Shown one piece after another: positions 4,154-20,671 of a stretch of 34,917 nucleotides of DNA. The stretch covers positions 1 through 34,917 of the forward strand of contig CAMYMF010000027.1 of the NCBI GenBank assembly GCA_947259355.1, in the 5' to 3' direction. How positions within the stretch are numbered: position 1 is the stretch's first letter; every line of letters begins with the position of its first letter. The translations under genes were made by a program, and so were the position numbers. Source of the DNA: an uncultured Nitrospirota bacterium (lineage in GTDB: Bacteria; CG2-30-53-67). The notes under the pieces are model-generated. The model did not search any database. It saw nothing but the letters and a program-made list of their open reading frames with translations, and was not told the DNA's origin.

Positions 4154-4269
4154 AACAACCGCTCTCCTTGGTTTCTATGTTTTCAAGACGTCCCGTCGGG
4201 AAAGGACCGTTTCACCGGCTTCCTGGGACGCCTCGTGCTGATTCTGCCCGGCGGGTCGATGAAGTCGCT

Positions 4270-5376
4270 CTACCGCAAAGCGAGAGGGATGCTGACCCTT
4301 ACCGTTGTTCCTTCATCGGATCTGCCCCGTATAGTGACAGTGCCTCCCCAACGGCGGATCCGCTCACGTATGCCGATCAATCCCAATGACTTGGGGTGGG
4401 TGATCTGCCTCTCGCGGATACCCTTTCCGTTGTCCTGCACCGACATCACCAGGTCGCCCTCCTGCTTTTCCAGCGTCACCTGAACCCGGGTTGCCTCGGC
4501 ATGGCGAATGACGTTGGTCAGTGTTTCCTGGAAGATCCTGAATACCGTTGTCGCCCGTTCCTGGTCGAGGCTGCCGTTGCCCGAGTAGAGGGAGACTTCG
4601 CATGGGATCCCGGTCCGCTCCTCGAACTCCTGGGCCTGCCATTCCATGGCCGCTTGAAGACCCAGATCATCCAGCAGCCCCGGGCGCAACTCGCAGGCAA
4701 TGCGCTGTACCGACCGGGCGGTTTCTTCAAGAAGATTCAGCATGGATCGGGTTTTGTCGTGGACAGCGGCATTCGCTTCGGGCAGTCGCTTGCCGAGCCA
4801 GAAGAGATCCATTTTCAGCGCGGTCAGGGCCTGGCCCAATTCGTCGTGAATCTCTCGGGCGATATGTTTTCTTTCCTCTTCCCGCACCGACTCGAGGTGC
4901 GCAGTGAGGTTGCGCAGCTGCTCGCCCGACGCCGCCAGCTTCTCCTCCGACGTTTTCCAGCGAGTGATATCCCGCACCACATGCAGGACGCCGCGAATCC
5001 GGCCAAGAGAATCTATATGAGGAATGGCCCTGATTTCAACGAACTTGTCCAGCTTGGGCTCGAAGCTTTCAAGCACTGCGGGCTGACCGGTTTGAAGGCA
5101 TTGATAGCCCGGACAGCCCTGCTTCATGCATTCGGTGCCATGGTAATATCGGTAGCATTTCATCCGAGAATGGCGTGTGGACGGGAGCTGGAGTTGGCGC
5201 TGTGCTGCTGCGTTGGCGGCCACGATGTTGAAAGATCGGTCATGGACCGTGATGACATCCGGGAGGGCATCGAAGACCTCTCGCCAGGCTGTTGATGAAA
5301 CACCGGAAATCGATATTTTTTGCAGTTTATCAAAGTTAGATGTAATAATAGAATGAAAAAGTGCCTTTTCGTCCAT
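4270..5376 (-). CDS. PAS-domain sensor histidine kinase, HisKA_3 (NarX/NreB-like) type
   Basis: This is a 368-residue soluble kinase with no transmembrane segment, so it senses a cytoplasmic signal. A PAS domain covers about 30-140 and carries four closely spaced cysteines at 74, 83, 88 and 93 (KCYRYYHGTEC, GCPGYQC). A coiled coil leads into the dimerisation H-box, REIHDELGQ, with the phosphorylated histidine at about 177. The HATPase domain shows an N-box near FQETLTNVIRHAEA, DNGKGI and GLIGIRERIRRWGG. It pairs with the NarL-type regulator 116 bp downstream. The cysteine cluster recalls the Fe-S oxygen sensor of NreB, although the spacing differs, so redox or metal sensing is plausible. The long AT-rich upstream gap contains a copy of the shared repeat. 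Confidence 0.92.
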   Translation of the reverse strand: MDEKALFHSIITSNFDKLQKISISGVSSTAWREVFDALPDVITVHDRSFNIVAANAAAQRQLQLPSTRHSRMKCYRYYHGTECMKQGCPGYQCLQTGQPAVLESFEPKLDKFVEIRAIPHIDSLGRIRGVLHVVRDITRWKTSEEKLAASGEQLRNLTAHLESVREEERKHIAREIHDELGQALTALKMDLFWLGKRLPEANAAVHDKTRSMLNLLEETARSVQRIACELRPGLLDDLGLQAAMEWQAQEFEERTGIPCEVSLYSGNGSLDQERATTVFRIFQETLTNVIRHAEATRVQVTLEKQEGDLVMSVQDNGKGIRERQITHPKSLGLIGIRERIRRWGGTVTIRGRSDEGTTVRVSIPLALR

Positions 5377-7373: not shown

Positions 7374-8189
7374 CGGGGGCCGCTATTCCAATCGGCTCGT
7401 CCGCCTCATCATCGTTCTTTTTGCGGGAAATCGTGCATTTCATTGCATCGGCATTGCACTGTATGCACGATTGGTTGGGGTGGATGGAACGACGCCTCTC
7501 GGCGATGGTGCCGCTATTCTCGAAAAGCATGTAGTCTTTTTATGACACCCGTTTCCGTTTTTGCCGTATTGACACACTTATGCTTCACTCTTGTCTGTGT
7601 CCCAGACAATTCGGTGGGATTTTCCTGACAAACAGACATGAGCGCTGAATATGGGTCTCCCCTCGACCGTACCTGTTGCTGAATCGTTACATTCATTTGG
7701 GAAGTATAATGTAGCATATTTGTCCCAGATTCACCTGTGAATAACATTTATGTCACAAAAAAGTAACTCGCTGTTTTTTCTCCTTATATCGAACACCGTC
7801 GAAGAGGGCTCTGCCAGAGCGCCCCGAAGAACGAGCGTACTCAACGCCACGGCATGGGAAGCATTTCGCGAAAAGCATATTTAAAATCAATCTGTTATGA
7901 ATAGGAGGGGTGGTGAGCAGTGCTTTTCCTACTGATTTGGTATGGATCTTGCTTTAAGACTAATGACCATTCTTGTCCAGTGGATCCATGGACCCTCCGG
8001 GTGAGGCGCAGTCGAGCGTCACCGCTTAAGGGAAGTCGTGGAGCGACACAATTCGTTGTCATTTGTTTTGATTGACGGGTTTGACTCATTTTTGTATAAT
8101 CCCGCGGCTTATTTTGAAGCGTCCGGCAGGAGGGCCGGGGCGTTTTCCTGATTTCTTGACCCATTTTATCTGAACCAAGGGGGAGAAGC
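7374..8189. other. Long intergenic region before the cytochrome/copper cluster
   Basis: These 816 bases hold no gene I can support. The first 350 bases or so are of mixed composition without family-like open frames. A strong ribosome-binding-site-like AGGAGGGG at about 7903 precedes a 14-codon GTG frame that I do not count as a gene. The right end holds the promoter at 8072-8100 and an 80-base leader in front of the triheme cytochrome gene. The leader includes a short GC-rich potential stem (CCGGC with GCCGG near 8120-8140). Confidence 0.55.
8072..8100 (+). promoter_or_regulatory. Strong sigma70-type promoter of the cytochrome/copper cluster
   Basis: TTGACG (8072-8077), a 17-base spacer and a perfect TATAAT (8095-8100) make this the best housekeeping-type promoter seen in the window. 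The predicted start near 8107 leaves about 83 bases of leader before the cytochrome ATG. It may drive the whole plus-strand cluster to 20671, though longer gaps inside suggest extra starts. Confidence 0.7.
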
Positions 8190-8546
8190 ATGAAGGCAGC
8201 ACTCTTTTCGAAGGTATTGATGGTTACATTTGTTCTGGCGGCATTGGCATTCTGGGCCTTTCCCGATACATCGCAGAGCTCTTGCGGCGCGGCGGCCTCG
8301 TCCTGTAAGAAGTGCCACGAGATCAAGGGGGAGATGAAGGTCGAATCGAAGGGACTGCACCACACCCAGCATTCCTTTGCCGATTTTTGTGTCTTTTGCC
8401 ACGGGGGGAGTACCACGGCGACCACCAAGGAGCAGGCCCATGAGGGGATAATCAACCCGCTGGCCGATACCAAGAAGAGCTGCTCCGCGTGCCATCCCGA
8501 TGATTTCGAGAAGCGCTCCGCCGTTTATGGAGCCGCTAGCAAATAG
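8190..8546 (+). CDS. Small exported triheme c-type cytochrome
   Basis: This is a 118-residue protein with an N-terminal signal or anchor segment (about 8-24) and three heme-c sites: CKKCH (39-43), CVFCH (67-71) and CSACH (98-102). Histidines at 57, 58, 61 and 84 can act as distal ligands. The start has AAGGGGGAG about 6 bases upstream. It is an electron carrier in the periplasm or on the outer face of the membrane. As first gene of the cluster, next to a Rieske protein and a second cytochrome, it probably passes electrons between the quinone pool side and a periplasmic partner. I do not recognise a specific named family. Confidence 0.9.
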   Translation: MKAALFSKVLMVTFVLAALAFWAFPDTSQSSCGAAASSCKKCHEIKGEMKVESKGLHHTQHSFADFCVFCHGGSTTATTKEQAHEGIINPLADTKKSCSACHPDDFEKRSAVYGAASK

Positions 8547-8750
8547 GCGAGACTGTTCAACGAGATGTCCGCAACGCCCCCCCCGGGTCTTGCGAAAAAT
8601 AGGGTGGACGTGATCACACGGGCACGTCTTCGGGTGGGGGTTCGCGTTATCCAACCACCTCAAACGATTTGTTGATTGAAAGCCTGTGTTCCGCACCCCG
8701 GGGCCGAGGGGCCAGGGGGCCGGATGTGCCATGGCGCTTAGGCACGCCGC

Positions 8751-9371
8751 ATGGGGAACACGGGCGCCCCTTGGATGAGCCGATACCTCTCTCAGAATAT
8801 GCTCAAGGTGTCAGGCAAGCCTCGGACAGCATCGACGGAAGCCCTGCCGGGCGTGGCGACGGGGCGCTGCCGAAGCGGCTGTCGCCCCGGGGCGAGGCTG
8901 ACTGCTGGCGCGACGGACGCAACGGGTCTCACCCGGCGGCGTTTCATCCGTCTCAGCGGGATTTCGGCCGCTGTCCTGTCGGCAATCGGTCTTTCGGGCA
9001 TCGTGCGGTCCTATCTGTCGGCAGGTCCCGTTGAAACCATTCCGACCCGCTTTGTCTTGGGAACTCCCGCCGACTTTCCGCCGGGGAGTGTGACGCTGAG
9101 AGAAGGCATCTTCGTGCTCCGGGACAGCGCAGGGCTCTTTGCCGTGAAGGCCGAGTGCTCCCATCTGGGATGCAGGATTCGGTGGAATGCCGGCGAAGCG
9201 GTCTTTGACTGCCCCTGCCACGGGAGTCGCTATGACCAACGAGGCGGGTATCTCTCGGGTCCAGCCCGAAAACCGCTGACCCCCGTGCACTTGAGCCGAA
9301 ACGATGCCGGGCAGCTGGTGGCAGATCTGTCGAGAAAGACCCGGGCGTCGCGTCGCGTCCGGGAGGGTTGA
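8751..9371 (+). CDS. Rieske [2Fe-2S] protein with Tat signal
   Basis: The C-terminal half carries both Rieske cluster boxes, CSHLGC and CPCHGSRYDQ, giving two Cys and two His ligands and the disulfide cysteines found in bc1/b6f-type Rieske proteins. A twin-arginine motif, TRRRFIRLSG, followed by a hydrophobic stretch (ISAAVLSAIGLSGIV) predicts Tat export and membrane anchoring. The first 60 or so residues before it are Arg-, Gly- and Ala-rich and look non-native. No start has a good ribosome binding site, so the true start may lie later than 8751. No cytochrome b gene is in the window, so it is not part of a standard bc1 operon here. Rieske proteins also occur near clade II nos clusters. Confidence 0.87.
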   Translation: MGNTGAPWMSRYLSQNMLKVSGKPRTASTEALPGVATGRCRSGCRPGARLTAGATDATGLTRRRFIRLSGISAAVLSAIGLSGIVRSYLSAGPVETIPTRFVLGTPADFPPGSVTLREGIFVLRDSAGLFAVKAECSHLGCRIRWNAGEAVFDCPCHGSRYDQRGGYLSGPARKPLTPVHLSRNDAGQLVADLSRKTRASRRVREG

Positions 9372-9466
9372 ACGATCGATGCCATGACCGTCGCGCGCTC
9401 CTGAATAGGGACCCCCGGGGCAGACGTGTGAAGGTGATGGGATGTTTGAATGGGGAGGTTAACTAG

Positions 9467-10696
9467 ATGGCGTGGGTAAAATCACTGAAGAGCCATTATG
9501 ACAAGGTGTTCGTCGATGAATGGCCGGCGTATACGAGTGGGATCCTGCTGGGATTGCTGATCGTCGTGGTCTTTGCCTGGGGCAGGACCTGGGGCGTTCA
9601 AGGTGGTCTGGCCAACTGGGGCGATTGGCTCAATTACTTCACGGGGATCTCCAAACTCCTCGGGGTCTCGGACAAACCCGAGTCGCCGCTACACAACTCT
9701 ACGTCCCTCATGAGTCTGGGCCTCATCTTCGGCTCCTTCGCCGCCGCGCTCATGTCCCGGCAGTTTTCGTTCCGAATTCCGCCGCTGCTGGAGATGGTCA
9801 AGGGCGTCATTGGCGGCACACTCATGGGGATCGGTGCCACCATGGCCATGGGATGCAATGTGGGTGGGTTCATCTCACCGGTGACGGCCTTCAACTTTTC
9901 AGGTTGGGGCATGGCCGCCGGGATGATCGTCGGTGCGGCCATCGGGGTCAAGATTCTCTGGTGGGAGATGGAACATATCATGTGGGGCCGTAAGAACCTG
10001 CAGTCCTATTCGGGCTCCAGTAAAGGCACCTACAAGCCCTTTCTGGGATTGCTCGTCTATGCCGCCGCCATTTACTGGGCATACCGTTATCTTACCGGGG
10101 CGGAGGAAGGGATGAAGTTTCTCGGCGGGGTGATCCTCATCGGAATGGCCTTCGGTGTGGTGCTGCACCGGTCGCGATTCTGCTTTTCCCGGGTATTTCG
10201 GGATCCGCTCATGACGGGAGACGGGTCGATGACGAAGGCGGCCCTGCTGATGCTCCTCATCGGGATACTGGGAAACGCCCTGCTCATCTACAACGGTTCC
10301 AAGTCCTACTACGATGCCCTGACCCCCGTGTTCTGGTCCGGGTCACTCCTGGGGGGGATCATCTTCGGCATCGGCATGATCGCCGCCGGTGGGTGCGCGA
10401 GCGGCGCGCTCTGGCGAGCGGCCGAGGGGCATATTAAACTCTGGATCGCGCTCTTCTTTTTCGCCTGGACCAGTTCCTGGTGGAAGGCGCTGCTGATCAA
10501 GTGGGATATTCTACAGCTTCACATGGACATGTCCAAACCGGGAACCTACATGACGAAACTGGGCTCGCAATTCTATATGCCCAGAGAGATGGGGGGGTGG
10601 TTCTGGACCCTGGCGATCTCCCTGGGGTTGCTGGCTCTCTGGTTTGTGCTGGTGGTATATAACGAGACCACGGAGCGCTTCACCGTGGTCAAATAG
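9467..10696 (+). CDS. YeeE/YedE (TsuA-like) family transporter
   Basis: This 409-residue polytopic inner-membrane protein has about nine or ten helices. It shows the conserved cysteine motifs of the thiosulfate-transporter TsuA/YeeE group: MGCNVGG (C130), RSRFCFSR (C236) and AAGGCASG (C310). In TsuA such cysteines pass thiosulfate along the pore. GGGAGG lies upstream of the ATG. It sits between the Rieske gene and a heme protein, so it may import a sulfur compound linked to the redox reaction, or a sulfur ligand for metal-site assembly. No tusA or dsrE partner gene is adjacent, unlike many yedE loci. Substrate is inferred only at family level. Confidence 0.88.
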   Translation: MAWVKSLKSHYDKVFVDEWPAYTSGILLGLLIVVVFAWGRTWGVQGGLANWGDWLNYFTGISKLLGVSDKPESPLHNSTSLMSLGLIFGSFAAALMSRQFSFRIPPLLEMVKGVIGGTLMGIGATMAMGCNVGGFISPVTAFNFSGWGMAAGMIVGAAIGVKILWWEMEHIMWGRKNLQSYSGSSKGTYKPFLGLLVYAAAIYWAYRYLTGAEEGMKFLGGVILIGMAFGVVLHRSRFCFSRVFRDPLMTGDGSMTKAALLMLLIGILGNALLIYNGSKSYYDALTPVFWSGSLLGGIIFGIGMIAAGGCASGALWRAAEGHIKLWIALFFFAWTSSWWKALLIKWDILQLHMDMSKPGTYMTKLGSQFYMPREMGGWFWTLAISLGLLALWFVLVVYNETTERFTVVK

Positions 10697-10804
10697 TCGA
10701 CTTTGAGAAAAGAGGAGGAGTGAAAGGAGGTGATCAGGGGCATCGAATTATCGTTTGTTGCACGAAGGAATTTTGATCAATAACAAGTAACAAGGGGGTG
10801 TGTA

Positions 10805-11920
10805 ATGAAGAAAATGGGTCTTATTGCAGTACTGGCGATGCTCGTTATTGGTGCTTATCTCGCCTCGTCAACGGTCAGTACGAACACCGATGTGGTTGTG
10901 GCCGCCAAAGGCACGTATTCCGGCACGGTCTATGTGGCCGGCATGGGTGGACACTATGCCGCCGTGGATCTGACGATTGACCCCAATGACAGCGTTCATC
11001 CCATTAAGGTCAACGGGCTGGATCGCGTGGTGATCGGTCCGAAAAAGAGCCATCCCATTCACGATACGCGCATCGACGTGAATGACCGCGACGTGACCTA
11101 CTGGTCCACCTATAAACTAGATCCCGACGGAAACCTCCATTCGGGAAAAGCGAATCTGAAGACCGGTGAGGTCTTGATGGATGTGGCCTTCCCCATGCCG
11201 GACCGGGTCAACAAGGATCAGGCAGGGGCCAACTACTGTGGCTCCGGTCAGTCGAAGCATTCCTACATTCCTGTCTCCATGGCAAACGAAGGCTATATCG
11301 ACATTCGCGACAAGAAGACCATGGAGCTAAAACACCGCGTCTACATGAGCCAACTCGGTTACAAGCCCGGGACCTACACCTTCGTTCACGGGACCAATAA
11401 TCCGGACATGACCAAATTTCTGTTGACTTTCAACGTGACGCCTGCGGGTTACAAGGGCTGGAGCGGCAAGACCAAGATGATCATGCTGGACATGGCGGCA
11501 CTGGAGAATGGGCAGATCAAGCGGTTGGCCGAAGGCGAGCTGACCGGGACCCCGGGCAAGACCATTACCTTCCGACAGAGTTTTACGCCGGATGGCAAGC
11601 ACATCCTTCAGGCGGCCGCGGATCGGGCCTACTTGGTCGATGCAGCGACGCTGAAGCCGTTGGATGAGATTACCGACATCGCCGGCGCTAGCCACGATAT
11701 ACTTCCCACACCTGACGGCAAGTATGCTTTACTCACGCTGCGGGAGTCGGCCAAGGATAAGGATGGCAAGGACACCGTCGATGGGGTCCTCCAGCTCTAC
11801 GACATTGATAGTCGGAAAGTCGTTGGCAAGACCGCCTCGGTCTGCCAGGCCTGCCACGGCGGGATGGGTATGGGCTTCAAGAAGGCGGTGCTCTGCGGCC
11901 TGGACGCCAACTGGAACTAG
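10805..11920 (+). CDS. Exported protein with WD/YVTN-like repeats and one C-terminal heme-c site
   Basis: This 371-residue protein has an N-terminal signal or anchor (about 1-24), and AAGGGGG lies upstream of the ATG. The body has beta-propeller-like repeats, for example FTPDGKHILQAA and ASHDILPTPDGKYALLTL, which recall YVTN-type, NirF-like and NosZ propellers. The C-terminus has a single heme site, CQACH (347-351), followed by GGMGMGF, where a methionine could be the distal ligand. Histidines at KKSHPIHD, SKHSYIP, VHGTNN and ASHD could bind a metal. I do not recognise a named family, and it is not NosZ (length and CuA motif are wrong). It could be the catalytic or substrate-binding subunit of the cluster. 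Confidence 0.75.
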   Translation: MKKMGLIAVLAMLVIGAYLASSTVSTNTDVVVAAKGTYSGTVYVAGMGGHYAAVDLTIDPNDSVHPIKVNGLDRVVIGPKKSHPIHDTRIDVNDRDVTYWSTYKLDPDGNLHSGKANLKTGEVLMDVAFPMPDRVNKDQAGANYCGSGQSKHSYIPVSMANEGYIDIRDKKTMELKHRVYMSQLGYKPGTYTFVHGTNNPDMTKFLLTFNVTPAGYKGWSGKTKMIMLDMAALENGQIKRLAEGELTGTPGKTITFRQSFTPDGKHILQAAADRAYLVDAATLKPLDEITDIAGASHDILPTPDGKYALLTLRESAKDKDGKDTVDGVLQLYDIDSRKVVGKTASVCQACHGGMGMGFKKAVLCGLDANWN

Positions 11921-11977
11921 GAAACCACACGGCTACAACCTCCAGGGCTTCGCCCCTGAAGCGTTGCTTGTTTCTGC

Positions 11978-12005
11978 GAGCCACCCCCGGTAACGGGGGT
12001 GGCTC
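11978..12005. terminator. Perfect hairpin between heme protein and ABC permease genes
   Basis: The 12-base arms GAGCCACCCCCG and CGGGGGTGGCTC are separated by GTAA and can form a very stable stem. No T run follows. It may attenuate or stabilise the transcript between the redox genes and the ABC/copper genes. A smaller stem (CAGGG with CCCTG, near 11943-11958) lies just before it. Confidence 0.55.
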
Positions 12006-12067
12006 TGCCCGTTCCCGATGATCCGCTTCTGATCCTAGGGCCTGCTTTTGGGGGAATTCGCACAGAC

Positions 12068-13318
12068 ATGACTACAAAGACCCGTCCGACGAAATTCGGT
12101 AAACTGGCCGTCGCGCTCAGAAACCTTAAGCGGAACGCATTCCGTACGACGGTGCTGGTGTCGGCCATTGCCATCCTGGTGGCGCTGCTCATTTTTGCGA
12201 CCTTCTTTACCGTCAGCGTCAGCGCCACCATCGAAAAGGCCTCGGACCGACTCGGTGCCGATCTGCTCATTGTTCCAGTGGGGGCCAGAGATTTTGCACA
12301 GGAATTTCTTCTCGAGTCCAAGCAGAAGTCCTTTTATATGCCCAAGGAGATCCTTCCGCGGGTCCAGGAGATCGAAGGGATTGAGTCGGCCACCTATCAG
12401 ACCTATCTCGAGACTATCACCGGCCTCTGTTGTGATGTGGCCGAGGCCCAGATTATTGCCTTTGACCAGGACACGGACTTTATCGTGAAGCCGTGGCTTC
12501 AGAATTCCATCGGGCGGGCTCTCGGACCGGGGGAAGCCATTGCGGGCATCGAGACCTACGAGAATCTCGGTCTCGAGCTCTTGGAGGTGGAAAAAACCAT
12601 GTTCAACAAACGCTTCAAGATCGTCGGGGTCCTGGAGCGAACGGGGACGGGTCTGGACAATGCTATCTTCATGACCGAAACGGATCTGCAGGAGATCGTG
12701 GCGGGCGGCAGCTCACCCCTGAAGAAAGATCAGATCTCCATCATTTTTGCCAAGATCGGCCGCGATGTCGACCCCTATCACGTGGGGTTGGACGTGGAGG
12801 GGAACATCATCGAAGTCGATGTGGTGACACGGCGGGAAATGGGCTCGGAATTGTTGCGTAAACTGAGCGACATCAATAAGATCTTTGTTCTCTCAACGGT
12901 GATGGGGGCCATCCTGACGGTCTTTCTCGTCTGGGCTATTTTTTCGGCCATTGCCAACGAACGGGCCAGTGAAATCGGCATCATGCGGGCCGTGGGCGCC
13001 AGTGAGTCCCATATTGTGCGGCTCTTCATCCTCGAGGTGGTGCTGGTCGGTGTTTTGGGAAGCCTCATCGGCACGGCGCTGGGGACCTATCTCTTCATGT
13101 CCTTGACGAAGAGTTTCGCTCTACTTCGGGATCTGTCCGTGCCCGTCCTCTCCTTCCGACCGTTGCCGGCCTATCTGCTGCAGCAGAGTGTGATCGGTGT
13201 GGCCAGCATCCTCGTGGGGACCGGCATCTGCATTGCCGGGGCTCTCGGACCCATCAATCGGATCAAACGACTGGAGCCCCATGTGTCGATGAAAGGATCA
13301 CTCCTTTGTCGCAGGTAG
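12068..13318 (+). CDS. FtsX/MacB-type ABC transporter permease (first pair)
   Basis: This is a 416-residue permease with the FtsX layout. One N-terminal helix (about 28-50) is followed by a large periplasmic domain and three C-terminal helices in the segment with SEIGIMRAVGAS, a typical FtsX coupling region. The start at 12068 is chosen because it gives the standard short cytoplasmic N-terminus; the open frame begins further upstream. A vicinal CC pair (121-122, GLCCDVA) lies in the periplasmic domain and could bind a thiophilic metal. The 3' end overlaps the ATPase gene by 13 bp. MacB/LolCDE-type transporters move substrates from the membrane or periplasm rather than across the inner membrane. 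Confidence 0.87.
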   Translation: MTTKTRPTKFGKLAVALRNLKRNAFRTTVLVSAIAILVALLIFATFFTVSVSATIEKASDRLGADLLIVPVGARDFAQEFLLESKQKSFYMPKEILPRVQEIEGIESATYQTYLETITGLCCDVAEAQIIAFDQDTDFIVKPWLQNSIGRALGPGEAIAGIETYENLGLELLEVEKTMFNKRFKIVGVLERTGTGLDNAIFMTETDLQEIVAGGSSPLKKDQISIIFAKIGRDVDPYHVGLDVEGNIIEVDVVTRREMGSELLRKLSDINKIFVLSTVMGAILTVFLVWAIFSAIANERASEIGIMRAVGASESHIVRLFILEVVLVGVLGSLIGTALGTYLFMSLTKSFALLRDLSVPVLSFRPLPAYLLQQSVIGVASILVGTGICIAGALGPINRIKRLEPHVSMKGSLLCRR

Positions 13319-13983
13319 AGATATCGAACCTGAGCAAGGTCTACACGGTGGGAGGTGAAGAGATTATCGCGGTACAAAACCTCTCACTCACCATCGAAAA
13401 GGGGGATCTCCTCGCCGTCGTCGGACATTCGGGCTCCGGAAAGACCACGCTCATCTCCATGATCGGGGGCATTCTCAAACCGACGTCGGGCAGTATTGTC
13501 GTAGACGGCACGGACATCTGCAAGCTGGATGATGCGGATCTGTCGGAGTACCGCAACCGCAAGATCGGCTTCATGTTCCAATTTGCCAGCCTTCTGCCTG
13601 TCTTGACGGCCATGGAGAACGTCCTGCTGCCGCGTATCTTCGCCGCTGAGGGCGGGGCCAATCACCACCGGCGTGCCGAAGAGTATCTGGATGCTTTGGG
13701 CCTGGCCGACAAACGCCATGCATTTCCCGGGGAGCTCTCGGGTGGACAGCAGCGTCGGGTGGCCATTGCGAGAGCATTGATCAATGAACCGCGACTGATT
13801 CTCGCCGACGAGCCGACGGGGGATCTTGATGAGGAGACGGAGGCGGACATCCTCAAACTGTTTCACCAACTAAACCGGGAGAAGGGGATCAGTTTCGTCA
13901 TCGTCACCCACAGCTCGGAGATTGCAGCGGAGTGCAGAAAACGTTGCCGGATGAGCCACGGTGTTCTGGAACACGAAGTTTAG
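13306..13983 (+). CDS. ABC transporter ATP-binding protein (LolD/MacB type, first pair)
   Basis: This 225-residue ATPase has Walker A GHSGSGKT (40-47), the Q-loop region in [16 protein letters not shown], signature ELSGGQQRR (about 143-151) and Walker [13 protein letters not shown]. The start is TTG at 13306, with AAGGA 8 bases upstream. It overlaps the end of the permease gene, a sign of translational coupling. It powers the permease encoded by the preceding gene. Confidence 0.93.
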
Positions 13984-14018
13984 CGTGGATCCATCCGGGA
14001 ATTAAAAGGGACACGAAT

Positions 14019-14038
14019 TAGTTTCCATCCGGAAACTA
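14019..14038. terminator. Short perfect hairpin between ATPase and PCu(A)C genes
   Basis: TAGTTTCC and GGAAACTA form 8-base arms around an ATCC loop, 35 bp after the ATPase stop and 13 bp before the next start. No T run follows. It could be a processing or attenuation site, or a regulatory operator. Confidence 0.4.
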
Positions 14039-14051
14039 GCTTGGATCTGGC

Positions 14052-14495
14052 ATGCGTCACCATTTGAGAGGCCTGAGGGATGTACGACGGGTGCTCCCGT
14101 TGCTTCTGCTGCTCTGCGGGGGTGTCGCGTGCTCCGCGGACCGAACCCCGCGGCTTGTGGTCAAAGGGGCAACGGTGCAGGTCTCCGATGCCATCAAGGG
14201 AAGCGCTTCTTCCTTCATGTTCGTCATCAATGAAGGATCCGGCGACGACAGGCTGCTCGCCTGCCTGATCAAGGAGTACCCGTCGGTCTACGTGGAGTTG
14301 CACGATGTCGTCGGCGGCAAGATGACCATGGTCAAAGAGATTGCCATTCCCGCCCGTGAGACGACCGCCCTTAAACGGGGTGGACTGCATATCATGTTCA
14401 CCGGGTTTCCGGAAGAACACGAAACAAAGGTGACCCTGATTCTGACCTTCGAGAAAAGCGGACCCATCGAAGTCCGTGCAACGGTACTCTCATGA
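14052..14495 (+). CDS. PCu(A)C-family periplasmic copper chaperone
   Basis: This 147-residue protein has a signal peptide with a possible but weak lipobox ending at C27 (GGVAC). The mature part fits the PCu(A)C (DUF461) fold. Its copper-binding set is H84 (VELHD), M91/M93 (GGKMTMVK), H113 and M115 (GGLHIMF), matching the family pattern of H, M and HxM ligands. The surrounding family landmarks (IPARET, KRGGLHIMFTG, VTLILTFEKSG) are also present. PCu(A)C proteins hold Cu(I) in the periplasm and deliver it to cuproenzymes such as the CuA site of cytochrome oxidase. With two NosL-type genes nearby, this is the clearest sign that the cluster handles copper. Its end overlaps the next gene by 4 bp. 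Confidence 0.85.
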   Translation: MRHHLRGLRDVRRVLPLLLLLCGGVACSADRTPRLVVKGATVQVSDAIKGSASSFMFVINEGSGDDRLLACLIKEYPSVYVELHDVVGGKMTMVKEIAIPARETTALKRGGLHIMFTGFPEEHETKVTLILTFEKSGPIEVRATVLS

Positions 14496-14848
14496 AACGA
14501 TCCCGATGTACCGCCCGTAGGATGCACCCGAGATACCGTTGCAGACGGTTGGTCCGGCAATGCATTACCTGGCTGTTGGCTGTGACTCTCCTGTGCAGCT
14601 TCACGGAATCACTGCAATGGATCCCCGCCCAACAGGGAGATGCCGTCCTGGCCAGTATCAATATCTGCGATACCGGCAGTGCTACGGCCAAAGTGACCGG
14701 ACAGGCACCCTGCCTGCCGCAGACGGCCTACACAGTCGAGCCGCCGGGGCCCGAAACCCGGCTCCCGGAGCAGCCGCCCATCTGTCCTGGTAGCCTTTTT
14801 GTCCAGCTCTTTGAGAGACCACCTCAAACACCTCTCTTCTCTGCCTGA
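14492..14848 (+). CDS. Small secreted or membrane-anchored Cys-containing protein, unknown
   Basis: This is a 118-residue product starting at an ATGA overlap with the PCu(A)C gene, so translation is probably coupled. It has a very basic N-terminus (many Arg) and then one hydrophobic segment (CITWLLAVTLLCSFT, about 24-38). A periplasmic part with Cys at NIC, APC and PIC and Pro-rich sequence follows. It faintly resembles small DUF2946-type proteins seen near copper genes, but I cannot confirm that. Its existence rests mainly on position, overlap and signal segment. Confidence 0.6.
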   Translation: MKRSRCTARRMHPRYRCRRLVRQCITWLLAVTLLCSFTESLQWIPAQQGDAVLASINICDTGSATAKVTGQAPCLPQTAYTVEPPGPETRLPEQPPICPGSLFVQLFERPPQTPLFSA

Positions 14849-14971
14849 TTTTCATGTCGGGCGGTTCCTTGATTTGATTTGTCGATGATTAATATTGCCG
14901 GGGCGGCCCTGCGTGTGGATGGTTGCGGCGTCGTGGTTCCCCCGTCCGATCTTTCGGAAGAGGAGGGTTTT

Positions 14972-16315
14972 GTGAAGAGCGGCTTGATTCTTCTTGCGTT
15001 TATTTGGCTGCTCCTGCCGCATGCGGCTCTGGGAGACGATGGAGGTGCCCGCCACAGCTGTCAGGTCTGTGGTATGTATACCGATGACTACGCTACGACC
15101 GCCGCGCAACTGGTGCGCCGGGACGGTCGGCGTGCCCATACCTGCGGTGTGGCCTGCATGCTCCGTATCGTACAGGATGCGGGGGGGCCGGGGGCCTTCT
15201 TGACCCTGCAGGTCCATGACTGGCCCACCGGTGACTTTACGCCGGCGGCGCAGGCCACCTATGTCATCGGGAGTCGGGTGATTCCCGATATGATTCCCAA
15301 TATCATCGCTTTTGAAAGCCCCGAGGAGGCCCGGGCCTTCCGAGAGCAGGAAGGGGGCGAGGTGATTGATTTCACCCAGGCCCTCAGTATCATCTCCCCC
15401 ATGGGGATGACGAACCCGACGCGCATCAAACCCGCGGTGCTGCCGCCCCGGGGGGCCTTTGGCGTCGGTCTGGGATCCATGAAGATGGTCATGGATGATG
15501 TGCAGATCGGGTCCGACTCGGAGGATCCTCAAGACTTTGTGAGACGGCCCACGCAGATGATGGGGCCCCGAAAGATGACGTCCCGGGGTGAGATGCTGAT
15601 GCTGAACTATGGGCTGACTGATCGTCTGACACTCAGTCTGAACGGGGCCTATCTGGAAAAGGAAATGGAGATGTACCAGATGGGCGGCGCCGTGACACGG
15701 AAGCGCCGGCACTCGGGTCTCGCCGATACGGAGGTGTCTCTACGATACAACCTCTGGAAGGACAGTTACTACCGCAACTTCTTCTCGCTGCTGGGCGGCG
15801 TGACGGTACCGACGGGCGATTTCGATGGCGCGTTTCTCAGCATGCCCGGTCTCCAGCTTGGCACTGAGGCCTTCGGTTTTACCGGCGGCTTGCTCTACAC
15901 CCATCGTCATGGACATCTCTGGTTTCACTTCTTGACAAGCTATACCGCGAAATTGGAGAATGACTACGATTACCAGTTCGGTGATGTCGCGCGCGTCGGG
16001 GCGGCACTACATTACACGCCCAACTATAATCTGATGCTGGGATTGGAGGTGGATGGTGTGGACCGGGGAAAGAACGAACTGAACGGGTCCAAGATCGGCA
16101 ACACCGGCGGATTTCGCAGTGCCCTGACAGCCATTGCCGAGTGGCGGTTCCTGACAGCGCTGGGAGGCAACTTCAATCTCCGTCTCTCCGGCGGGATCCC
16201 GCTCTATGAGGATCTGAATCATGACCGGATGGGGAGCGGGGAGCGGGTCCAACTGGGGGGCGGCTATTTCGCCAGTGTGATGGTTAATTTCAAGAGACGC
16301 TTTCCACGCTATTAG
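14972..16315 (+). CDS. NosL-like copper-binding domain fused to an outer-membrane beta-barrel
   Basis: This is a 447-residue protein from the GTG at 14972, chosen because GAGGAGGG precedes it and it gives a clean signal peptide (GLILLAFIWLLLPHAALG). Residues of roughly 25-140 form a NosL domain with CQVCGMYTDD and a second cysteine box, HTCGVACML. NosL binds Cu(I) and supplies copper to NosZ. After a Met-rich linker (MKMVMDD, PTQMMGPRKM), the rest is alternating amphipathic beta strands with aromatic girdles, ending in Tyr (FKRRFPRY) as outer-membrane porins do. Such a barrel would place the copper domain at the inner face of the outer membrane. NosL proteins are normally about 170-200 residues, so this is an unusual fusion. 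Copper uptake or export is inferred. Confidence 0.8.
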   Translation: MKSGLILLAFIWLLLPHAALGDDGGARHSCQVCGMYTDDYATTAAQLVRRDGRRAHTCGVACMLRIVQDAGGPGAFLTLQVHDWPTGDFTPAAQATYVIGSRVIPDMIPNIIAFESPEEARAFREQEGGEVIDFTQALSIISPMGMTNPTRIKPAVLPPRGAFGVGLGSMKMVMDDVQIGSDSEDPQDFVRRPTQMMGPRKMTSRGEMLMLNYGLTDRLTLSLNGAYLEKEMEMYQMGGAVTRKRRHSGLADTEVSLRYNLWKDSYYRNFFSLLGGVTVPTGDFDGAFLSMPGLQLGTEAFGFTGGLLYTHRHGHLWFHFLTSYTAKLENDYDYQFGDVARVGAALHYTPNYNLMLGLEVDGVDRGKNELNGSKIGNTGGFRSALTAIAEWRFLTALGGNFNLRLSGGIPLYEDLNHDRMGSGERVQLGGGYFASVMVNFKRRFPRY

Positions 16316-16403
16316 CGCCGAGACGGTATGGATCGTGCTCCGGGAGGCTCGGAGAGGATGACCGGTCCGCGGCGCGCAGAAGAGAAGCACAAAGGAGTCT
16401 ATC

Positions 16404-16889
16404 ATGAAATCGAGACGATGGGTCGTCGCGACACTTGCGGCGGTGCTCACCCTGTGGCTTGGCACTCCCGTCTTCGGGCACGAGCCCGCAGCACCGGGGA
16501 AGAAGGACCGGTGTCCGGTCTGCGGCATGTTTGTGGCACCCTACCCCCACTGGGTGGCAGTCATTGAATTCTCCGACGGCAGCCAGGCTTTCTTTGACGG
16601 CCCGAAAGATCTCTTTCGCTATCTCTTTGAGATGCCAAAATACACCCGGCAGAAGACGAAGGCCGACGTGGCCCATGTTTACGTCACCGAATTCTACACC
16701 GCCCGCCTCATGGACGTTGCGGCGGTCACCTTCATTACGGGCAGCGACGTGCTCGGGCCCATGGGGCATGAACTGGTCCCCGTCGCCGGTGAGGCCCATG
16801 CCCAGACCTTCATGAAGGACCACGGCGGCAAAAGAATGATCTCCTTTGAGGAGATGACGCCGTCGGACATTCCTGGAAGGAAAAGGTAA
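16404..16889 (+). CDS. nosL: NosL-family copper chaperone
   Basis: This 161-residue exported protein has a signal peptide (WVVATLAAVLTLWLGTPVFG) and lacks a lipobox cysteine at the cleavage site. The mature protein opens with the NosL hallmark RCPVCGMFVA, followed by the family features FSDGSQAFFDGPKDLFRYL, a VTEFYTARLMD segment, FITGSDVLGPMG and a C-terminal FMKDHGG. NosL proteins bind Cu(I) through Cys and Met ligands and help assemble the copper sites of N2O reductase, yet no nosZ is present in the window. The start has AAAGGAG 7 bases upstream. It lies between the NosL-barrel fusion and a second ABC pair. Confidence 0.9.
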   Translation: MKSRRWVVATLAAVLTLWLGTPVFGHEPAAPGKKDRCPVCGMFVAPYPHWVAVIEFSDGSQAFFDGPKDLFRYLFEMPKYTRQKTKADVAHVYVTEFYTARLMDVAAVTFITGSDVLGPMGHELVPVAGEAHAQTFMKDHGGKRMISFEEMTPSDIPGRKR

Positions 16890-17011
16890 GGCGCGAAATA
16901 TCGGCAAGGGTCGATGGTAGCGCAGCGTCCCCGTGGCTCTCTTGCTGAGAAGGGCCCGTCTCGAAACGCGCGGGTCCATCGGACCCTGTCGGGCGCCCGA
17001 GGGGAATATCG

Positions 17012-17314
17012 ATGACCAAGTACCGTATCTTTCTGGCCCTTATTGCCGTGGAGTTGGCAACCCTGCTCTGTCTCTACGGGCTGGGGCTGTTCCGGTTCAA
17101 CCGGTCGGCTCCCGAAGTTGTCCTGCTGCAGGAGATGGCCGCAGAGTTGATGCTCACTGATCTGGCCATCTGGTCGGAGGCGACCTATGCCCGTCATCCC
17201 TCCCAGGCCGACCTCTTCAGCCCCTTTCAGGATTACCCGTCAGCCATCGAGCACTTTCCTTCGGGCTCCATTCTGGCGCCGCCCTTTGCCGAGCGGAGGG
17301 GCGCCCATGAGTAA
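17012..17314 (+). CDS. Small single-span membrane protein, unknown
   Basis: This 100-residue product has one N-terminal transmembrane segment (IFLALIAVELATLLCLYGLGLF, about 6-27) and a periplasmic tail rich in acidic and aromatic residues. GAGGGG lies upstream of the ATG. Its stop overlaps the start of the permease by 8 bp, so it is probably translated together with the second ABC pair and could be an accessory subunit. I recognise no domain. Confidence 0.65.
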   Translation: MTKYRIFLALIAVELATLLCLYGLGLFRFNRSAPEVVLLQEMAAELMLTDLAIWSEATYARHPSQADLFSPFQDYPSAIEHFPSGSILAPPFAERRGAHE

Positions 17315-18473
17315 ACATCTCAAGATACTGGAGTTTGTGCTTTCGTCCCTGCTCCGCCGCAAGTTTAAGAACCTCGGGATCGTGGCTGTCTTTTCTTTTG
17401 TCGTCTTTATCCTCGCCTCGATCCTCTTTCTGACCCACGCCTTCAAGGCGGAGTCCTTGGCGATCCTGGAGGGGGCGCCGGAGCTGATCGTCCATAAGAT
17501 TGCCGGCGGCCGTCATGACTTGACCGCGCTCCGGTACGGCGATGAAATCGCCGGGATTCCCGGCGTGGGTCGCGTGCTTCCCCGATACTGGGGCTATTAT
17601 TACGATGTCTCCACGGGCGCGAACTATACCATCATGGGCGCGACGGGCTCACCGCGCAGCACCCTGCAGCTGGTCCGGGGCGCGTTTATCGAGGCGGGGC
17701 AGCGGGGTGTTTGTGTCCTGGGCCAGGGCGTGGCCGAGGCGCGCCTCACAGGATTGAACGGCATCGTACCGATCATGGGTGCCAACGGGGAACTCTATCG
17801 CTTCCAGGTGGTCGGCGTGTTCACCGATCCATCCACGCTACTGACAAATGACCTCATGCTGATTGCACCGGAGGACATCCGGGAAATCTTCGACATACGC
17901 CCCGACATGGCCACCGATATCGTGGTGCAGGTCTTCAACCCGTCGGAGGTCGCCAATGTGGCGAAGAAGATCAAGTACCGCTTCCCCGAGTTGCGGCCCA
18001 TCACTCGCACGGAGATCCTGCGGACTTACGAGACCCTCTTCAGCTGGCGCAGCGGCCTGGTCATTCTCACATTCGTGGGGGCCCTGGTGGCCTTCGGAAT
18101 TCTCGCCTGGGACAAGGCCACCGGCCTGAGTGCGGAGGAAAAGAAGGAGATCGGGATTCTCAAGGCCATCGGGTGGGAGACGTCGGACATTCTGGCATTG
18201 AAGTTCTGGGAGGGGGCGGTGCTGTCACTGGTCTCTTTTCTGACCGGTCTCATTGCCGCCTACCTGCATGTCTTCTTTTTCGGGGCGTCGGTTTTTGCCC
18301 CTGCGCTCAAGGGGTGGTCCGTGATCTTCCCCGAGTTCCGCCTGCGGCCGACCATTGATCCTTATCAAATATTCGTACTGATCTTTTTAACAGTGCTTCC
18401 CTACATTGCGGCCACCATCGTGCCTTCGTGGAAGACGGCCATCACCGATCCAGACATTGTCATGAGAGGCTAG
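17307..18473 (+). CDS. FtsX-type ABC transporter permease (second pair)
   Basis: This is a 388-residue permease from the ATG at 17307, which follows GGAGGGG and overlaps the preceding gene. An N-terminal helix (about 22-45) is followed by a large periplasmic domain that starts with ELIVHKIAGGRHD, and then three C-terminal helices. The cytoplasmic loop has EEKKEIGILKAIGWETSDI, the usual FtsX coupling helix. It differs clearly in sequence from the permease at 12068, so the cluster holds two distinct transporters or one heterodimer. Two FtsX permeases with one or two ATPases and a DUF2318 gene also occur near the Campylobacter P19/FTR1 iron locus, a known parallel. Confidence 0.87.
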   Translation: MSKHLKILEFVLSSLLRRKFKNLGIVAVFSFVVFILASILFLTHAFKAESLAILEGAPELIVHKIAGGRHDLTALRYGDEIAGIPGVGRVLPRYWGYYYDVSTGANYTIMGATGSPRSTLQLVRGAFIEAGQRGVCVLGQGVAEARLTGLNGIVPIMGANGELYRFQVVGVFTDPSTLLTNDLMLIAPEDIREIFDIRPDMATDIVVQVFNPSEVANVAKKIKYRFPELRPITRTEILRTYETLFSWRSGLVILTFVGALVAFGILAWDKATGLSAEEKKEIGILKAIGWETSDILALKFWEGAVLSLVSFLTGLIAAYLHVFFFGASVFAPALKGWSVIFPEFRLRPTIDPYQIFVLIFLTVLPYIAATIVPSWKTAITDPDIVMRG

Positions 18474-18478
18474 ACGCG

Positions 18479-19153
18479 GTGCTGCACCTGGAGCAGGTCA
18501 CGAAGATTTTCAACAAGGGCAAACCGAATGAAGTGGTTGCCGTCCGGGATGTCTCCCTGGAGATCCCCCGGGGGAGTCTGTCGGTCCTCAAGGGCCCCAG
18601 CGGATCGGGTAAGACCTCGCTCCTCGGTCTGATGGGCTGCATGAGCCGTCCCACGGCGGGGCGGATTGTTGTGGGTGAGCGGGATGTGGCGAAATTGCCG
18701 GAACGCTTTCTCACCGAGGTGCGGCGCAAGACATTCGGCTTCATCTTTCAGCACTTTCACCTGATTGCCGGCATCAGTGTCCTGGAAAATGTCATGTTGC
18801 CGCTCTATCCGACACAGATGCCCCTCGGTGAAATCAGGCGACGGGCCGAGGGGGTCGTGGACGATCTCGGTTTGTCTGCACGGAAGCACTTTGCGGTCCA
18901 GGGGCTCTCCGGCGGGGAGCAGCAGCGGGTGGCCATCGGTCGGGCGTTGATCAACGATTGCGAGGTTGTGCTCGCCGATGAGCCCACGGCCCATCTCGAC
19001 ACGACCCTGTCTGAGGAACTCATCGGTATTTTGCGACGACTCCACGGAGAGGGCAAGACGGTCGTCATTGCCACCCATGATCCCCTGGTGTACGATCGGG
19101 CCTTTGTCCAGCAGGTGATCGAGATGCGGGACGGAAGGATTGTTCCCGCATAG
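18479..19153 (+). CDS. ABC transporter ATP-binding protein (second pair)
   Basis: This 224-residue ATPase uses a GTG start at 18479, 5 bp behind the permease stop, with GAGAGG upstream. It has Walker A GPSGSGKT (39-46), the Q-loop region in FQHFHLIAGISVLENV, signature LSGGEQQRV (about 142) and Walker B VVLADEPTAHLD. It powers the adjacent FtsX-type permease. It is related to, but not a recent copy of, the ATPase at 13306. Confidence 0.92.
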   Translation: MLHLEQVTKIFNKGKPNEVVAVRDVSLEIPRGSLSVLKGPSGSGKTSLLGLMGCMSRPTAGRIVVGERDVAKLPERFLTEVRRKTFGFIFQHFHLIAGISVLENVMLPLYPTQMPLGEIRRRAEGVVDDLGLSARKHFAVQGLSGGEQQRVAIGRALINDCEVVLADEPTAHLDTTLSEELIGILRRLHGEGKTVVIATHDPLVYDRAFVQQVIEMRDGRIVPA

Positions 19154-19222
19154 GAGGGGGCCTGGGGTACCTCTCATGACGGACATGGATGCCATAGTGG
19201 CGTTCGCGCAAAAGGGTCCTGT

Positions 19223-20233
19223 ATGATTCTCCATCCAGGTATTGTGGCTCTGATCATGGGCGCCTGCTTCGTCGCGGCCATGGTGCTCTACAGCGCCGTC
19301 ATGGGGGTGGCCGTGCTGCGCCGCTGGGATATGACGAGCAGCTCCGAGAGGCAGCTGCAGCTCGAGCGCAAAACCTATCTCACATCGACCCTCATGAATT
19401 ACGTCCTCGGTTTCGAGATTCTTTCGTCGCTTCTGTTCATTCACACGGTGGACAGCCTCCATGCGATCTTCGTGGGGGCCATGTGTGCAACGGGGTCGCT
19501 GAACGCCAACCCCGTCGGCTGGGCGGCGCTCTATGCGAAACTGGCCGTCCTCTTTCTCTCGGCCATCTGGATTGCCGTGAACGTGATCGACCAGCGGCAA
19601 GCCGATTATCCGCTGACCCGGTTCAAATTCGCCGGCGTGCTGTTTCTCCTGCCGCTGGTGTTTCTCAGCACAGGGCTGCAACTTCGCTATTTCCTCGGTT
19701 TGAAGCCGAACATCATCACGTCGCGCTGCGGCGCCCTGTTCAGCGAATCCGGCGGGGGACTGGCGAGCAGCCTCTCGTCCGTCGCCATTCGCCCCACCAT
19801 GATGGCCTTTTACGGGCTTTTGGCGCTCTTTCTGGCGGCGGGGATCTTCGCGCTTAGACGCCGCACCGGCACGTGGCGGTATCTGTTTGCCGGTCTGTCG
19901 CTCCTGGTGCTTCCGGTTTCCCTGACGGCGGTGGTCTCTTTCATCTCGCTGTACTTCTATGAGATACCGACCCACCATTGTCCCTTCGACATTTTTCAGG
20001 GCAACTATCACTACCTGGGGTATGCGCTTTACGGGACTCTTTTTGCGGGCAGCTTCTTTGGCACCATGACGGGCGTTTCGGAAATGCTTCGGGGAAAGGC
20101 GTCGGTGGGGACAACGATCGATGGGCTGCAGCGCAAATGGATTGTGCTGTCCGTGGCCGCGGTGGGGATCTTTGCGGCGATCGCCACGTGGCCCATCGTT
20201 TTTTCAAGCTTTACACTGGATGGTTATTTTTAG
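19223..20233 (+). CDS. Polytopic membrane protein of unknown function
   Basis: The 336-residue protein has about eight predicted membrane helices. The start has AAAGGG about 7 bases upstream, and the gene is followed without a gap by the DUF2318 gene. Landmarks are RCGALFSES after the fourth helix and EIPTHHCPFDIFQGNYHY, a His-His-Cys stretch at a membrane edge. Such residues could bind copper, iron or heme. I recognise no named family. In Campylobacter the DUF2318 domain is fused to a membrane domain, so this protein and the next may form an equivalent two-piece unit. Confidence 0.72.
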   Translation: MILHPGIVALIMGACFVAAMVLYSAVMGVAVLRRWDMTSSSERQLQLERKTYLTSTLMNYVLGFEILSSLLFIHTVDSLHAIFVGAMCATGSLNANPVGWAALYAKLAVLFLSAIWIAVNVIDQRQADYPLTRFKFAGVLFLLPLVFLSTGLQLRYFLGLKPNIITSRCGALFSESGGGLASSLSSVAIRPTMMAFYGLLALFLAAGIFALRRRTGTWRYLFAGLSLLVLPVSLTAVVSFISLYFYEIPTHHCPFDIFQGNYHYLGYALYGTLFAGSFFGTMTGVSEMLRGKASVGTTIDGLQRKWIVLSVAAVGIFAAIATWPIVFSSFTLDGYF

Positions 20234-20671
20234 ATGGCACAGACGGCAAGACTCTTGTGCATTTTGATGCTGCTCCTGCTGATGAGCGCCTGCCGACAGG
20301 CGCCGACCCATACGCTCGTTGCGGCCGAGGGCTCCCACGTGCGGATCCCCCTCGCGGGCGTGCGCGACGGCACGGCCCATTTTTTCACCTATCGACAGGG
20401 GGGGAAGAACATCAATTTCCTCATCCGGACGGACCGCACGGGAAAACTGCACGTCTCACTGGACGCATGCTATACGTGCAGCAAATACCGCAAAGGTTTT
20501 CGGGTGGACGGGGAGGAGATCTGCTGCGCGCACTGCGGGACGCGCTTCGGTCTTTCCGATCCGTCCTGGCAGCTCGGCGGCTGTACGCCCATCGACCTGC
20601 CCCACCGGATCAGCGAGAGCTTTCTGAGTGTCGCGGTTTCGGATTTGACGCGGAGCGCGAGGCTTTTTTGA
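20234..20671 (+). CDS. DUF2318-like Fe-S/metal-binding lipoprotein
   Basis: This is a 145-residue product whose signal peptide ends in a good lipobox (LMSAC, C20), so it is probably a lipoprotein. The mature domain has the DUF2318 layout: FFTYRQGGKNINFLI, then LDACYTCSKYRKGFRVDGEEICCAHCGTRF (positions about 77-106), then GGCTPIDLP. The paired CxxC motifs resemble a Rieske or rubredoxin-like site. DUF2318 proteins occur with FtsX-type ABC genes and metal uptake systems. The start codon directly follows the previous stop, so the pair is tightly coupled. It ends the plus-strand cluster. Confidence 0.82.
   Translation: MAQTARLLCILMLLLLMSACRQAPTHTLVAAEGSHVRIPLAGVRDGTAHFFTYRQGGKNINFLIRTDRTGKLHVSLDACYTCSKYRKGFRVDGEEICCAHCGTRFGLSDPSWQLGGCTPIDLPHRISESFLSVAVSDLTRSARLF

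Follow-up and report, generated by a model that had tools for sequence, protein, structure and literature searches.

The DNA examined here is a window of 34,917 nucleotides, the whole of contig C27 (CAMYMF010000027.1, GenBank assembly GCA_947259355.1) of a metagenome-assembled genome (MAG) from an uncultured Nitrospirota bacterium. This genome comprises 3.1 Mb in 94 contigs, is 89.7% complete and has as its nearest named relative a MAG of the CG2-30-53-67 group. On the forward strand, positions 8190 to 20671 contain a cluster of 15 open reading frames (ORFs; g01–g15, Table 1), the fourth of which, g04, encodes an exported protein with one heme c motif and a predicted six-bladed β-propeller fold. 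We propose, with a probability of roughly 50%, that g04 is a propeller oxidoreductase with copper and heme that acts on a reduced sulfur compound and is matured by the products of the surrounding genes; its copper, its substrate, the direction of the reaction and the roles of the ATP-binding cassette (ABC) transporters are the conditional parts of this proposal. The basis for it consists of gene content, conserved gene order, ligand-like invariant residues, the predicted fold, His/Cys exchanges between subfamilies, and an association with dsrA and sulfur-transfer genes. Although widely conserved among bacteria and archaea of the sulfur cycle, the gene set has gone unrecognised, and it suggests an enzyme not yet described. 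A first-pass annotation, made from the sequence alone, had suggested the heme protein at 10805 as the possible enzyme to which a cluster of thirteen same-strand genes is devoted. That guess is supported here, as the two halves of the cluster are conserved together and neither nosZ nor an oxidase gene is tied to it. The same-strand arrangement is also borne out, whereas the count is not, because two small ORFs (14492–14848 and 17012–17314) bring it to 15. That annotation had not noted a connection with sulfur metabolism or with thiocyanate dehydrogenase (TcDH).

The g04 protein has 371 residues, begins with MKKMGLIAVLAMLVIGAYLASS, and matches none of the Pfam, NCBIfam or PADLOC models. Its structure was predicted with 30 homologues, and the resulting model is confident (predicted local distance difference test score, pLDDT, of 88, compared with 49 for a version from three sequences only). 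From the strand list of this model, approximately 24 strands were assigned to six four-stranded blades. The C-terminal strand closes blade 1, and the helix bearing the CxxCH motif lies just ahead of it. The top fold match is the six-bladed propeller of nidogen (1npe, Z of 26). A profile of g04 alone found no convincing solved structure. In 42 aligned sequences, residues H50, H86, H112, C145, M159, H195, H297 and C364 are invariant, as is the heme motif C347-C350-H351, which is present in all aligned family members and fits redox work. In the predicted model, the innermost strands of blades 1, 2, 3, 4 and 6 carry C364, H86, C145, H195 and H297, respectively, that of blade 5 carries R257, and H50, H112 and M159 are located on B–C loops. 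Placed in this way by the predicted strands, these residues would line the channel with a ring of soft-metal ligands, which is what a copper site would need.

The same residues could instead belong to a heme-only electron-transfer or heme-d1-like protein, kin to cytochrome cd1 or NirN, in which the His and Cys sidechains serve as heme ligands, a disulfide or structural elements, and in which lipoproteins or heme are the cargo of the ABC pairs. A C145–C364 pair is conceivable, NirN appears among the weak sequence matches and in the Foldseek list, and one remote family member (locus L096) matches Cytochrom_D1 with an E value of 1.5e-9. However, g04 itself has no Cytochrom_D1 match, the invariant soft-metal ligands are too many for one heme, and NosL, PCu(A)C and TlpA, which are encoded with g04, are copper-delivery proteins. 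His-to-Cys exchanges between g04 and its remote subfamily, described below, also argue against a heme-only function, which we regard as quite unlikely.

This remote subfamily, g04b (L089–L096), shares 22–28% identity with g04 and retains H50, C145, H297-D298, R313, C364 and the heme. It has Cys in place of H195 and His at position 256; exchanges of His for Cys along the channel are commonly a mark of metal ligands. In all eight g04b loci, the gene is followed by the same permease and ATPase, and a Cys-Cys pair in the periplasmic domain of the first permease is found in 47 of 49 sequences from g04 and g04b loci. g04b also has extra Cys, and TusA or YeeE is encoded nearby in L089 and L090. Two further loci (L083, 8647–11037; L084, 8279–10648) encode a tandem, circularly permuted double g04 propeller in one chain, with a heme motif in each propeller; two FtsX permeases follow, without an adjacent ATPase. 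At somewhat less than even odds, g04 and g04b are tentatively proposed as periplasmic oxidoreductases of a new class, copper-heme propellers with a dedicated NosL/FtsX-ABC maturation system, which would carry out an unrecognised dissimilatory sulfur step in Desulfobacterota, Nitrospirota, Rokubacteria and archaea with sulfite reductase.

An initial scan of 84,980 genomes yielded 30 loci with g04, which belong to Nitrospirota, Desulfobacterota, Rokubacteria, Actinomycetota and archaea. Further searches recovered g04 from 85 of the 258 genomes in the class to which a Desulfurivibrio-like MAG belongs, from 43 of 295 Nitrospirota and from 5 of the 23 genomes of one archaeal class; about a third of the sampled Desulfobulbia and a seventh of the sampled Nitrospirota carry it. 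It was not found in plasmid records. A same-strand FtsX permease gene lies within 400 bases after g04 in 45 of 52 loci and in 12 of 12 further ones (57 of 64 in all). The g04 and g05 distances are correlated with a Spearman coefficient of 0.90, a value reached in 0 of 1000 permutations. The full set of g04, two ABC pairs, NosL, g11 and g14 recurs in Desulfobulbia and Nitrospirota. In the complete Desulfobulbia layout, g14-g13-g12-g11-NosL-TlpA-ATPase is divergent from g04-permease (L024, L027, L033, L040, L075, L079–L082, L086 and L088). In Nitrospirota, one locus combines NosL-g11-g12-g13-g14-FtrD with ATPase-permease-g04 (L114), and another g14-g13-g12-g11-NosL with g04-permease-ATPase-PCu(A)C (L112). 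Because of these full sets, the two halves of the cluster belong together across phyla. The possibility, raised at first pass, that the halves are never conserved together is thus not the case: they co-occur in the window's genus, in the Desulfobulbia loci that reach g14 and in L112 and L114. The triheme and Rieske genes (g01 and g02, respectively) are local additions, seen in the window's phylum only, which is represented by just eight genomes in the comparison set.

Recurrence of one gene order across phyla, far beyond chance, also bears on the idea that only chance brought the cluster genes together, or that their client is the cytochrome oxidase of the genome. The genome does have an aa3-type oxidase; it is located on contig C5, beside its own SCO1/SenC gene, and an order conserved in unrelated phyla refutes a chance association. 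Almost no weight can be given to this explanation.

On the copper side, H84, M91, H113 and M115 of the PCu(A)C protein g07 are conserved in 7 of 7 relatives, and the copper motif C37xxC40-G41-M42 of g10 is invariant in 26 relatives. Both g09 and g10 belong to the NosL family, as each combines a PF05573 match with the CxxCGM motif. The fusion of NosL to a PF13557 domain in g09 possibly indicates an outer-membrane copper route, which would be unusual for NosL; NosL-bearing proteins of similar size also occur in two other loci of the phylum (L072 and L073). In N2O reducers, NosL is described as a Cu(I) chaperone that works exclusively for the CuZ site of the reductase (PMC6530538). As first annotated, no nosZ or oxidase gene lies inside the cluster. 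A search of the window genome with model TIGR04246 found no nosZ, and matched only the CuA domain of the cytochrome oxidase on contig C5; with 89.7% of the genome at hand this absence is likely, not proven, and nosD was not searched genome-wide. Of the two genes to be looked for elsewhere in this genome, nosZ is therefore not found and an oxidase is present. NosZ-like genes occur in 2 of 27 g04-bearing genomes, in neither case near g04, so that no tie to nosZ or an oxidase emerges in relatives. Since nosZ is not found or rare and the oxidase has its own SCO1, g04 is the natural client of the cluster NosL and PCu(A)C, and we consider it probable that the copper-delivery genes serve it; nosZ and the oxidase were rejected as clients on the same grounds. 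A literature search for NosL together with DUF2318 returned nothing. Two side observations concern these enzymes. A g04-bearing phylum mate has a NosZ-like gene (L042, G009 C215, E of 4e-143) on a contig separate from that of g04, and L011 (G000 C17:20900–21304) contains a COX1-like fragment, a frame of 201 residues that includes a single TGA and may be either a decayed gene or a short membrane protein of heme-copper-like type.

A dedicated NosL could also mean that g04 is an N-oxide reductase, acting on N2O or NO at a CuZ-like copper-sulfide site with sulfide supplied by YeeE/TusA. NosL is specific to CuZ assembly in the known systems (PMC6530538), the propeller is His-rich, and copper–sulfur chemistry would explain the joint presence of copper and sulfur genes. 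Set against this are the lack of a NosZ match or CuA domain in g04, five rather than seven invariant non-heme His residues, the presence of nosZ-like genes in just the two genomes noted above, and there elsewhere, and hosts that mostly bear dsr genes. An N-oxide substrate is considered highly unlikely.

The host genomes point towards sulfur. dsrA is detected over the cut-off in 22 of the 27 g04 genomes and with an E value of 1e-99 in two Rokubacteria (24 of 27 at 1e-99 or better). Among 295 Nitrospirota, dsrA is present in 40 of 43 genomes with g04 and in 93 of 252 others (p of 1e-12, not corrected for phylogeny). In two archaeal loci (L038 and L039), g04 is followed by genes for DsrH-like, DsrE-like, multiheme cytochrome, TusA and YeeE proteins. 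In Rokubacteria, a DsrE-like gene flanks g04 on either side and TusA is close by (L034 and L036), and in L014, L077 and L087 TusA-YeeE is divergent from it. YeeE-like proteins import sulfur (PMC11582611), and the YTD cluster (YedE, TusA, DsrE-like) has been proposed for sulfur disproportionation (PMC12998232). On balance, the evidence leans towards a sulfur compound as the g04 substrate.

In the copper-heme oxidoreductase reading, invariant His, Cys and Met residues of the central channel would most likely bind a multinuclear copper site, and the covalent heme c, placed between blade 6 and the strand that closes blade 1, would conduct electrons like a wire. Cu(I) would reach g04 through NosL and PCu(A)C, joined in relatives by the TlpA thioredoxin, while FtrD, g14 and the two FtsX-type ABC pairs may provide energy-driven maturation or metal/sulfur handling. 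The enzyme would most likely oxidise or reversibly convert a small reduced sulfur compound, as TcDH or methanethiol oxidase does. Electrons could then exit through the g04 heme to the triheme and Rieske proteins, and the sulfur product could be handed to YeeE and the TusA/DsrE/Dsr system.

Table 1 Features of the g04 cluster.
Feature	Position	Strand	Basis or remark
Sigma-70-like promoter, TTGACG-17-TATAAT	8072–8100	+	11/12 positions; consensus match only
g01, triheme c-type cytochrome, exported	8190–8546	+	Three CxxCH; Cytochrome_C7 just under cut-off
g02, Rieske [2Fe-2S] protein, N-terminal anchor	8751–9371	+	PF00355, E 9.6e-11
g03, YeeE/YedE sulfur transporter	9467–10696	+	PF04143, E 2.8e-55
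g04, exported monoheme six-bladed β-propeller; proposed copper/heme enzyme	10805–11920	+	One CxxCH; predicted model
g05, FtsX/MacB-type ABC permease, conserved periplasmic Cys-Cys	11999–13318	+	PF02687, PF12704
g06, LolD-like ABC ATPase, partner of g05	13306–13983	+	PF00005; TIGR02211, E 3.5e-68, below equivalog cut-off
g07, PCu(A)C copper chaperone	14052–14495	+	PF04314, E 1.8e-15
g08, small Cys-containing protein of no family	14492–14848	+	Only in window and genus mate L012
g09, NosL domain fused to outer-membrane-barrel-like domain	14879–16315	+	PF05573, E 5.3e-17; PF13557, E 3.8e-07
g10, NosL Cu(I) chaperone	16404–16889	+	PF05573, E 8.3e-27
g11, small membrane-anchored protein, conserved His	17012–17314	+	16 relatives, between NosL and permease 2
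g12, second FtsX/MacB-type permease	17307–18473	+	PF12704, PF02687
g13, second LolD/MacB-like ATPase; start uncertain, perhaps ~18479	18428–19153	+	PF00005
g14, polytopic membrane protein, conserved Cys/His, no family	19223–20233	+	16 relatives
g15, FtrD-like (DUF2318) lipoprotein, four conserved Cys	20234–20671	+	PF10080, E 6.6e-20

The domains named at first pass are all present in their places, as judged by CxxCH counts and by Pfam matches over the cut-off (PF00355, PF04143, FtsX, MacB_PCD, ABC_tran, PF04314, PF05573, PF13557 and PF10080); FtrD-like, the name of PF10080, has replaced DUF2318. The promoter-like site at 8072–8100 is a good one and coincides with the start given to the cluster at first pass. 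The NCBIfam models closest to g03 are YedE/FdhT and TsuA, both below their cut-offs. Among the proteins of the second half, g14 contains an invariant GAMCATG motif, and its C168, C169, H251 and C253 are conserved in the 16 relatives; g14 also occurs in one genome, G004, without g04. In g15, C79, C82, C98 and C101 are invariant. Upstream of the cluster, on the reverse strand, 3497–5376 encodes a NarL-type response regulator and a sensor kinase, which could regulate the cluster.

Several observations weigh against the proposed oxidoreductase. g04 itself matches no copper-enzyme family, its sequence similarity to TcDH is no better than that to many other propellers found by the same searches (hydrazine synthase beta gives an E value of 1.6e-11), and TcDH has seven blades where g04 has six in the predicted model. 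NosL lies within 7 kb of g04 in just 22 of 52 loci, although many of the contigs break off early. Only a minority of loci have sulfur-transfer genes next to g04, and the dsrA association may partly reflect clade membership. Cyanase was found in 0 of the 27 g04 genomes, and thiocyanate itself is therefore not specially supported as the substrate. Lastly, the second half of the cluster is present without g04 in G004, which makes it a separable module. This last observation is also consistent with a different role, in which g04 is a propeller-type periplasmic metal chaperone or sensor, comparable to the zinc protein AztD, and NosL, FtrD, g14 and the ABC pairs together handle copper/iron acquisition or homeostasis, as a system related to Campylobacter FetMP-FetABCDEF (P19). 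A g04b query matches AztD weakly (E of 0.82), and the combination of an FtrD-like protein, two FtsX-type permeases, ATPases and a TlpA thioredoxin resembles the Fet/P19 cluster (PMC10783030, PMC6083913). On the other side, the invariant heme c motif fits a redox function, the window cluster has no FTR1 or P19 gene, and the tie to dsrA and sulfur-transfer genes is strong. A chaperone or sensor role is judged unlikely.

If g04 is the proposed oxidoreductase, it would be a direct candidate for the opening steps by which dsr-bearing anaerobes disproportionate sulfur and oxidise sulfur compounds; these steps are only partly known, and candidate genes for them are sought (PMC12998232). The papers on sulfur disproportionation and on cable bacteria that were searched mention no protein of this kind. 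NosL and FtsX-type ABC pairs would then be seen to work for copper enzymes beyond N2O reductase, and the so far unexplained ABC pairs in the TcDH operon would be tied to a general role in maturation.

Among known systems, TcDH, a copper propeller enzyme, and SBP56 methanethiol oxidase offer the best parallels. The fold of TcDH matches that predicted for g04 with a Z of ~21, and a joint g04 and g04b profile matches the TcDH of Pelomicrobium (P. methylotrophicum) with an E value of 9e-6, among many other propellers. The H447Q mutant of TcDH scores 5.7 bits lower with the joint profile and 5.1 bits lower with a shorter one, and so g04 H297 appears to match an active-site His of TcDH, an enzyme with a trinuclear copper site. 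With a third profile, the TcDH alignment begins at residue 417 and places the conserved His at approximately residue 423, where, by an offset that we infer, His447 should fall. The active-site list of TcDH includes His482 in T. paradoxus numbering (PMC6504805), the residue on which the profile alignment puts H297. Given that placement, the identical spacing of H297-D298-x14-R313 in g04 and H528-D529-x14-R544 in TcDH was taken as a coincidence. The TcDH operons of Thioalkalivibrio encode two permease/ATPase pairs, copCD and a c-type cytochrome, and their permease has one N-terminal and three C-terminal helices (PMC5328954, PMC5744179). The two systems share a periplasmic propeller, two such ABC pairs (here g05/g06 and g12/g13), a 1+3 helix permease, copper genes and a c-type cytochrome, which in g04 is fused as a heme motif. 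In contrast, TcDH is without heme, has a Tat signal where the g04 N-terminus lacks an RR motif, and is accompanied by CopC/D or Cus rather than by NosL, PCu(A)C, TlpA and FtrD.

SBP56, the selenium-binding protein of the copper-dependent methanethiol oxidase family, is likewise a propeller with a sulfur substrate, and one g04b member matches PF05694 (E of 2.2e-7). That match, at 30.5 bits, is below the cut-off of 34, and unlike g04, which has no PF05694 match, SBP56 is without heme c. NosZ, with NosL and NosDFY, similarly combines a His-rich propeller, NosL and an ABC transporter. However, g04 has no NosZ profile match and, in place of a CuA cupredoxin domain, ends in a heme motif and one strand; it contains heme c, and its ABC genes are FtsX-type and not NosFY-type. 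Cytochrome cd1 and NirN differ in that PF02239 (Cytochrom_D1) is matched by the g04b member noted above and not by g04. The sulfur-transfer genes that neighbour g04 in archaea, in Rokubacteria and in one group of Desulfobulbaceae resemble the YTD system; the window cluster has YeeE without TusA or DsrE, while the two archaeal loci have complete sets by g04. The published YTD descriptions searched contain no mention of NosL or a propeller. The Campylobacter Fet/P19 system shares a DUF2318/FtrD protein, FtsX-type permeases, an ATPase and thioredoxins; none of the 15 proteins of the window cluster is P19 or FTR1, and NosL, PCu(A)C and g04 are added. By the tests made, g04 is not TcDH, NosZ, SBP56 or cytochrome cd1, and it may work like TcDH.

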